Source: Candidatus Gastranaerophilales bacterium | Lineage (GTDB): Bacteria > Cyanobacteriota > Vampirovibrionia > Gastranaerophilales > Gastranaerophilaceae | Length of the DNA: 64,000 nt | NCBI GenBank assembly: GCA_944324905.1 | Contig: CALUYB010000005.1 | Location: 1 to 64,000, forward strand | Reading direction: 5' to 3' | Part shown: one piece after another, positions 1-4,855 of the stretch | Position numbering within the stretch: the first letter of the stretch is position 1 | Layout: every line of letters begins with the position of its first letter | Position numbers and translations under genes: made by a program | Notes under the pieces: generated by a model | What the model was told of the DNA's origin: nothing | The model's input: only the letters and a program-made list of their open reading frames with translations | The model's database searches: none

Positions 1-12
1 GCTACCAGGGCA
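1..12 (-). tRNA. 5' end of a tRNA gene cut by the window edge (probable)
   Basis: Read on the minus strand, the first bases give TGCCCTGGTAGC, the start of a tRNA (acceptor strand GCCCTGG, then TAGC of the D arm). Four further copies, reading TGCCCTGGTAGCTCAGCT, lie at 97-108, 193-204, 364-375 and 536-547, each closing one repeat unit. By analogy with tRNA-Pro at 4556-4629, where the intact gene sits at the same end of a like repeat, the functional gene should continue leftward out of the window. An inverted fragment in the repeats (GCTGGATAGAGCAAC) suggests the D arm of the same tRNA. The isotype cannot be read. Confidence 0.5.
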
Positions 13-204
13 CAGGTTATTTAATTTTCAATTTTACCGCTGGATAGAGCAACAGTTGCTATATTTATCGAAAGCAAATTGCTTTCTTGCAGCTGAGCTA
101 CCAGGGCATAGTTATTTAATTTTCAATTTTACCGCTGGATAGAGCAACAGTTGCTATATTTATCGAAAGCAATTTGCTTTCTTGGCAGCTGAGCTACCAG
201 GGCA
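13..204 (-). repeat. Two tandem 96-bp units carrying tRNA 5'-end copies
   Basis: Units 13-108 and 109-204 are nearly identical. Each contains, left to right: TTATTTAATTTTCAAT; an inverted tRNA D-arm fragment GCTGGATAGAGCAAC; a palindrome AGCAACAGTTGCT (48-60 in the first unit); a hairpin (GAAAGCAAATTGCTTTC at 70-86; GAAAGCAATTTGCTTTC at 166-182, its centre base swapped); and a minus-strand copy of the first ~18 tRNA nucleotides ending at 108 or 204. The GCTG and CAGC ends of the inverted and direct tRNA pieces can pair, so each unit is a quasi-palindrome. There is no ORF. Confidence 0.85.
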
Positions 205-547
205 CAGTTATTTAATTTTCAATTTTATGGCTCCTGTGGGTATTTCGGCTCTGTTCGGCTAAATCGCCTCACAGCCTCAATTATCCTACATCGCCTATCG
301 ACTGCTCTATCGCTGAGGCTCTACGCCTCATCGATTATCGCACCGGCTCACGCATTTAGCTGAGCTACCAGGGCACAGGTTATTTAATTTTCAATTTTAT
401 GGCTCCTGTGGGTATTTCGGCTCTGTTCGGCTAAATCGCCTCACAGCCTCAATTATCCTACATCGCCTATCGACTGCTCTATCGCTGAGGCTCTACGCCT
501 CATCGATTATCGCACCGGCTCACGCATTTAGCTGAGCTACCAGGGCA
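205..547 (-). repeat. Two tandem 171/172-bp GC-richer units carrying tRNA 5'-end copies
   Basis: Units 205-375 and 376-547 are identical apart from one G near their left end. Each starts with the same TTATTTAATTTTCAAT block as the 96-bp units and ends with the same minus-strand tRNA 5' copy. The middle differs: about 120 bp of clearly higher GC with hairpin GAGGC-TCTAC-GCCTC (315-329) and many short GCGAT/GCCTC-like words. On the minus strand a segment reading CTCAGCGATAGAGCAG resembles a tRNA D arm in direct orientation. Only tiny ORFs (11-16 codons) exist. From 548 to 590 the sequence returns to ordinary AT-rich spacer, probably the ancestral upstream region of the tRNA. Confidence 0.85.
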
Positions 548-590
548 TACCATATATTTTTACCACACACATAACATACTTGCAAGCATT

Positions 591-4545: not shown

Positions 4546-4555
4546 ACACAAAAAA

Positions 4556-4629
4556 TCGGGATGACAAGATTCGAACTTGCGACCCCCGCGACCCGAACAC
4601 GGTGCGCTACCAAGCTGCGCTACATCCCG
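4556..4629 (-). tRNA. tRNA-Pro (anticodon CGG)
   Basis: On the minus strand the acceptor CGGGATG pairs with CATCCCG. The D arm GCGCAGCTTGGTAGCGC, anticodon arm CCGTG-TTCGGGT-CGCGG (loop anticodon CGG) and T arm with GTTCGAAT are all present. The discriminator base is A and the CCA end is not encoded (TTT follows). Its 5' end and upstream bases are duplicated 92 bp upstream (see 4630-4721). Confidence 0.93.
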
Positions 4630-4721
4630 AAATTTTATTTAATTTTCAATAGCTCAGGGCGCAGCTTGGTTTTTTGAACCTTTTTGTTTTGTGCAAAGCA
4701 CAAAACGTGCGCTACATCCCG
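4630..4721 (-). repeat. 92-bp unit duplicating the tRNA-Pro 5' end
   Basis: The segment at 4616-4636 (the first 14 tRNA nucleotides plus upstream bases) recurs at 4708-4728. Between the copies lie: TTATTTAATTTTCAAT (4635-4650), identical to the block in the 1-547 array; GCGCAGCTTGGT (4659-4670), an inverted copy of tRNA-Pro nucleotides 10-21; and hairpin TTTTGTGCAAAGCACAAAA (4687-4705). The order of parts matches the 96-bp units. The rest of this intergenic stretch (4722-4973) is AT-rich and holds only the palindrome at 4856-4868 and the presumed promoter of the next gene. Confidence 0.85.
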
Positions 4722-4855
4722 AAATTTTTATTTAATTACATTTAACCAATTAACTTTAATATAACGGATAAAAAAAATCAAGTAATTGTATTTATTTTTT
4801 AAAAATTAGCTATTGATTTTATTAAGATATGTAAAGTGTCAAATATATTGTTAAT

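Follow-up and report, generated by a model that had tools for sequence, protein, structure and literature searches.

Repeats that carry part of a neighbouring tRNA gene have a long history in Escherichia coli, where those at tyrT have been known for decades to contain a piece of tRNA-Tyr. In E. coli K-12, every tandem 178-bp unit of the tyrT/tyrV repeats (the rttR/tpr region) includes a 19-nt copy of the tRNA's own end, AATCCTTCCCCCACCACCA, and the repeats are restricted to the 3′ end and to one locus. Integrative elements that use tRNA attachment sites insert inside the tRNA gene, the end of which is restored by the insert. The arrays described below lie mostly at tRNA 5′ ends, for which a literature search returned no paper, and, as far as we have found, the only known precedent for the pattern is that single case at the opposite end of one E. 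coli tRNA gene.

The window, meaning the whole stretch of DNA analysed (G000:C5:1-64000, taken from the 1.66-Mb draft genome G000 of a gut bacterium of the Gastranaerophilales), opens inside an array of such units and contains a second array-bearing tRNA some way into the contig. Their features are the following.

1-12, minus strand: copy of the tRNA-Arg(tct) 5′ end, truncated by the contig end
18-31, minus strand: A/T box TTGAAAATTAAATA
39-53, plus strand: inverted D-arm piece GCTGGATAGAGCAAC, antisense to tRNA nt 16-30 on the transcribed strand
70-86: hairpin/palindrome GAAAGCAAATTGCTTTC
91-108, minus strand: copy of tRNA-Arg(tct) nt 1-18
113-126, minus strand: A/T box
134-148, plus strand: inverted D-arm piece GCTGGATAGAGCAAC of the second short unit
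165-181: hairpin/palindrome GAAAGCAAATTGCTTTC of the second short unit
187-204, minus strand: copy of tRNA-Arg(tct) nt 1-18
209-222, minus strand: A/T box
223-357: GC-rich block of the first long unit, in place of hairpin and inverted piece
358-375, minus strand: copy of tRNA-Arg(tct) nt 1-18
381-394, minus strand: A/T box
395-529: GC-rich block of the second long unit
530-547, minus strand: outermost copy of tRNA-Arg(tct) nt 1-18
548-590, minus strand: ancestral leader with probable promoter, also found next to the tRNA in unit-free relatives
4555-4630, minus strand: tRNA-Pro(cgg), the second array-bearing tRNA
4631-4722, minus strand: one unit upstream of tRNA-Pro(cgg)

The core GCTACCAGGGCA (minus strand TGCCCTGGTAGC) recurs at 1-12, 97-108, 193-204, 364-375 and 536-547, which gives the spacings of 96, 96, 171 and 172 bp already reported in the earlier note on this DNA; all the elements it listed were found in place, including the A/T block, inverted D-arm piece and hairpin of the short units and the GC-rich block of the long ones. 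The 18-nt form, TGCCCTGGTAGCTCAGCT, occurs four times in 64 kb against 0.01 expected, and the two long units share 100% identity over 169 nt. The array holds no ORF of 50 aa, and a consensus scan of it for internal promoters or terminators found none; nor did the scan report the probable leader promoter, which was recognized by eye (TTGCAA at 580-585, TAAAAA at 557-562, spacer 17). The window array recurs only at tRNAs, apart from one dispersed match of its long block, which partly resembles an intergenic repeat at C1:99475 (89% over 63 nt). A GC-rich intergenic repeat family (GCGTAAGCCG ... ACAGGAGC), located after genes and rich in small palindromes, has taken the place of the hairpin part in certain tRNA units (those of Arg-tct and Tyr); its sites include 223-357 and 395-529 of the window, about 2340-3000 of L006 (G000:C1:97000-102000) and the region upstream of tRNA-Tyr in L038.

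Position 1 of the window is the end of contig C5 and lies inside the array. The left end of contig C14 starts in the same unit and continues into an intact tRNA-Arg(tct) (UCU) at C14:66-141, so that the complete gene predicted to lie beyond position 1 was reached from the facing contig end. In relatives, tRNA-Arg directly follows a yggT-like frame (in the window, PF02325) and, since C14 begins in the same unit and this neighbourhood is kept, the two contig ends are most likely the two sides of one assembly gap, with at least five Arg-tct units in this genome. Relatives carry 0, 1, 2 or more units between yggT and tRNA-Arg, a comparison of the kind that the earlier note had proposed between strains, and this range supports both the join and the reading of the outermost spacer as the ancestral leader: in unit-free relatives the same promoter-like leader runs straight into the tRNA. 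The restoration of the tRNA 5′ end by the units is likewise supported. Assembly breaks often fall in or near tRNA arrays, in this genome at the ends of C5, C14, C4 (where a fragmentary additional array is seen) and C6, and likewise in several relatives; tRNA counts in such draft genomes are therefore likely to be underestimates. Contigs that end in arrays, in draft assemblies, are what an assembly artefact might produce, but arrays also lie inside contigs of many independent assemblies and the 3′ form is present in E. coli K-12, and we regard an artefactual origin as having a negligible chance of being correct.

The arrays extend across the genome. Exact copies of at least 9 nt of a gene's own 5′ end lie upstream of 18 of the 34 tRNA genes collected, or 19 when Arg-tct is included, as against 4 of 1074 mismatched tRNA/leader pairs, an answer to the suggestion that all tRNA leaders be searched for their own 5′ ends. 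Inverted D-arm pieces of 9 nt or more are present in 16/34 own leaders and in 36/1074 (3.4%) mismatched pairs, the latter being expected to reflect mostly D-arms that resemble one another. The genome has 12 exact TTGAAAATTAAATA sites; all of them, and many one-mismatch variants, adjoin array tRNAs, which ties the repeats to tRNA genes as the earlier note had supposed. As to an rRNA operon as the source of this box (a boxA-like idea), the 16S gene was not found in this assembly.

A unit consists of the tRNA's own first 11-19 nt and the neighbouring A/T box in duplicate, typically with a fold-back copy of the D-arm and mini-hairpins between them. Read in tRNA sense, the order is 5′-end copy (from nt 1 to about nt 11-19), one or two mini-hairpins, A/T-rich linker, inverted piece, A/T box (consensus TTGA(A/C)AATTNAATA), a few bases and the tRNA, and in every array the intact tRNA is innermost. 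The match between copy and tRNA is 0.96-0.99 at nt 2-11, although the seed inflates the values at nt 1-12; it declines from nt 12 and reaches background by about nt 20. Among leaders with an inverted piece, 141/143 have one that spans tRNA nt 16-18, and it may extend to nt 7 or nt 30. Most units measure 84-112 bp. The tRNA-Pro(cgg) unit of the window, for instance, has a copy of its own nt 1-15, a hairpin, an inverted D-arm piece (nt 11-22) and an A/T box at 4636-4649. Hairpin loops are enriched over shuffled sequences for C-GNA-G (16 vs 0.56) and C-GNAN-G (11 vs 0.48). GA-[stem-loop]-GA hairpins (GAGCNNNGCGA, GAGTGAAACGA) recur: 41 of 111 units have them, compared with 18 after shuffling, and the E. 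coli tyrT repeats (L277) have them too.

Comparison with relatives bears on whether the units are mobile. At Arg-tct, the congeners have no unit in L076-L079, one in L070-L072, L074 and L075, and two in L080, while G039, from another family, carries four whose hairpin block differs; the Arg copies of the single-unit L074 and L075 have drifted. At the three tRNA-Pro loci (L053, L005 and window 4631-4722), the hairpin block is nearly identical and two loci share a long block, and at each the inner 5′ copy matches its own tRNA; the outermost copy at Pro-tgg reads CGGGATG where its own tRNA has CGGGACG. A hairpin block common to loci whose inner copies are locus-specific suggests that units have been transferred between Pro genes. 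One explanation is a non-autonomous hairpin element that inserts in D- and T-loops with the help of a trans-acting recombinase, the tRNA end being its target repeat. The empty congeneric sites, the block shared by the Pro genes, the constancy of the A/T box and an architecture common to several phyla all speak for it; against it, copy and inverted piece are specific to their target, hairpin blocks vary from one tRNA to another, no common terminal sequence was seen and a Y1 transposase is absent from seven genomes. We consider such an element, one of the two ideas offered in the earlier note (a mobile element targeting tRNA 5′ ends), quite unlikely: units match only their own tRNA, and no enzyme that tracks them was found.

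At tRNA-Phe two unit types with different inverted ranges occur, type A in most congeners and in other genera, type B in several genera, in the order A-B-B in this genome and B-A-B in the relative G005; two such types at one tRNA argue for repeated independent births. Orthologous units occur in different genera. The hairpin stems of type A show compensatory changes (TTGTT/AACAA, TTGGTT/AACCAA, TCGGTT/AACCGA, AGGC/GCCT), and its loop GAG..CGA is largely kept between genera. The copy follows changes in the tRNA acceptor strand (GCCGCGTT, GGCGCGTT, GCCGCAAT, GGCTCGTT), as does the inverted piece at nt 6-7. RNAalifold applied to the Phe units found the helix between antisense piece and D-arm and did not recover the hairpin block, because loop lengths differ.

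Predicted folding of the transcripts raises the question of function. With the promoter pushed away and the inverted piece able to pair with the real D-arm, the predicted cloverleaf forms with the upstream copy: in minimum-energy folds of one-unit leaders, the acceptor 3′ strand pairs with that copy in 41/47 and with the native 5′ strand in 1/47, the native acceptor stem forming in 42 of 54 array-free controls. The Val precursor is predicted to make a full cloverleaf (z -4.5) in which the unit is a structured D-loop insert and the D-stem joins upstream GCUC to the tRNA's GAGC. A single DNA strand is predicted to fold in much the same way. The A/T box is conserved and unpaired in the predicted array fold and, as a tRNA behind a unit needs a route of release, it would be the obvious candidate cut site.

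These predictions could describe a selected leader, an RNA lock or D-loop intron, that gates tRNA supply via an RNase: the upstream copy would provide the acceptor and the 5′ strand of the D-stem, the hairpins would fill an enlarged D-loop, the inverted piece would sequester the real 5′ half, and cleavage in the A/T box, or else splicing, would yield mature tRNA. Besides the folds and the conserved box, the covarying hairpin stems and the co-evolution of the Phe copy and inverted piece with their tRNA fit this model, and so does the excess of G-U pairs (56) over A-C mismatches (27) in the inverted-piece pairing, except that these counts are not independent. On the other side, given a copy and an antisense piece, the alternative cloverleaf follows almost automatically, unit presence and number vary among congeners, the copy can drift in single-unit species (L074, L075), and the 3′ counterparts considered below often lie after a terminator. 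A lock of this kind is a tentative possibility, on the unlikely side. That the units form a working regulatory device as a whole, with a false-cloverleaf pre-tRNA, an antisense-locked D-arm and release at the A/T box (or even splicing), placing about half of the tRNA species under the control of an RNase, we hold to be doubtful.

Units are not limited to 5′ ends. Mirror units follow Arg-cct, Glu, Leu-caa, Lys-ttt and Phe in this genome, and others occur in G005 and G039; each comprises a trailer, often with a terminator, in most cases an inverted piece of the T-arm, a hairpin block and a copy of the final 11-30 nt of the tRNA. The 178-bp repeats of E. coli K-12 tyrV/tyrT have the same layout, with an inverted end piece, GGGGAAGGAT, and GC-rich mini-hairpins, GTTGCCGCAGGCAAC, between the copies. 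About 240 nt downstream of tRNA-Lys(ttt), L043 contains a partial second tRNA-Lys(ttt), its last 30 nt exact, together with a D-arm piece set apart by hairpin sequence. Several mirror units lie beyond an intrinsic terminator and are thus probably not transcribed, which points to a process acting on DNA. Pre-tRNA fragments reverse transcribed into the locus would account for duplicated segments that run from near the presumed transcript end (the A/T box, or a little beyond the terminator) up to the first arm. A protein with a reverse-transcriptase domain (PF00078) is encoded at G000:C1:212083-212739 and in G005, G009 and G020. Its presence does not track the arrays, which occur at 14/32 tRNAs in G005, at 13/35 in G039, where no reverse transcriptase was found, and at 0/13 in the partial sample of G020, where one is present; reverse transcriptase as the driver was rejected, and an RNA-templated origin is improbable.

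The pattern also reaches beyond this lineage. In its strict antisense-arm form it was found in 28 of 386 Cyanobacteriota genomes, every one in Gastranaerophilales, and a reversed-pattern control gave zero; these are draft metagenome assemblies, and the counts, coming from related genomes, are not independent. When 84,980 species genomes were scanned, 109 stretches were returned, and among the 80 listed, 49 came from Gastranaerophilales, Melainabacteria or Cyanobacteria, names that fit this order. Among 25 listed stretches from other groups, 10 combine an own-end copy with an inverted piece at a tRNA: two Oscillospiraceae (one of them, L100, with four tandem matches), two other Clostridia, Saccharibacteria, Microgenomates, one alphaproteobacterium, one deltaproteobacterium and two Bacteroidota. 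Pattern matches in Polyangiaceae, Chloroflexi and others proved unrelated to tRNAs, and matches at His-tRNA in Burkholderiales and Desulfovibrio lacked a copy beside their inverted piece; both sets were excluded.

The specificity of units for their own tRNA, the different unit types, the 3′ mirror form, the scattered phyla and the loop enrichment argue for fold-back synthesis followed by unequal crossing-over. The explanation we favour, at a little under an even chance of being right, is in-situ duplication at tRNA ends by fold-back or template switching, with an A/T processing box that is maintained. DNA synthesis entering a tRNA gene would fold back at the first arm it meets, the D-arm from the 5′ side and the T-arm from the 3′ side, copy that arm backwards and restart just outside the gene, and only products leaving one complete tRNA would survive. 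Identical copies, among them the tRNA's own 5′ end, would then recombine by unequal crossing-over, which would change unit number and keep the copies in step with the tRNA, and a cut at the A/T box just before the tRNA would free the true tRNA and make arrays tolerable. C-GNA-G and C-GNAN-G loops make very stable DNA mini-hairpins. Hairpins of the GCGAAGC type have been termed extraordinarily stable (e.g. PMC10527192, PMC4686876), but C-GNAN-G includes GNRA loops, which are stable in RNA too, so that only the three-base loops favour DNA. Template switching is described as creating and maintaining hairpins (PMC8794818), and in yeast fold-back at breaks is described as a source of short templated inverted duplications (PMC11724301); an inverted local copy beside a direct copy, the signature of template switching, is what the units contain.

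Fold-back duplication does not cover everything. Plain template switching predicts neither the near-constant A/T box nor the kept hairpin loop with its covarying stem, and the presence of the box at unrelated tRNAs, together with the kept loop and the covarying Phe stem, indicates that selection or a recognized site also acts. The shared Pro hairpin block counts against a purely in-situ origin and suggests movement between loci, near-identical genomes yielded no case in which a unit was seen to arise, and the empty Arg-tct sites could be losses. If the units are mutational products, tRNA genes repeatedly give rise to structured repeats, and the E. coli tyrT case exemplifies a general process whose traces can be read in the sequences of many phyla; if they are functional, they represent a new control of tRNA supply. 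Under either reading, each genome offers about 20 natural replicates, and the arrays help to account for the assembly breaks at tRNA genes in these bacteria.

Several described systems share features with the arrays. Quasipalindrome and short-range template-switch mutations (PMC8794818, PMC7202029) have local inverted copies, hairpin creation and arm homogenization in common with them, but such mutations are small and one-off, whereas the arrays are repeated, tRNA-centred and tandemly amplified and carry a constant box. In contrast to tRNA-site integrative elements, the units are mostly about 90-170 bp, gene-free and spread over many tRNAs, each with a target-specific antisense piece; no integrase gene or remnant was found, most units being 84-112 bp and the array free of any 50-aa ORF. 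REP, BIME and REPIN elements are likewise short palindromic intergenic repeats, yet the arrays are bound to tRNA ends, a Y1/RAYT transposase occurs in 0/7 genomes, and there is no REP-like family-wide palindrome, the hairpin blocks differing per tRNA. T-box and other tRNA-linked leader regulators also use alternative pairings around tRNA sequence; here, by contrast, the array is a cis element of the tRNA gene itself, and a search of Rfam at the gathering threshold and at E up to 1 matched only tRNAs. The view that the array is unlike a CRISPR, REP or MITE element is upheld by these results. The earlier note's interpretation is partly supported: it was right to see a tRNA-end array, and did not anticipate its genome-wide extent, the 3′ mirror form, the other phyla and the likeness to tyrT. 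Like the E. coli repeats, the arrays are tandem units carrying the adjacent tRNA's own end; they differ in affecting mostly 5′ ends and more than half of the tRNA genes, and in their D-arm piece and A/T box. The tyrT-type copy lies 3′, downstream of the tRNA, a form that other tRNAs of this genome have, and the window array, being 5′, is therefore a variant of the tyrT-type repeats rather than a strict member.
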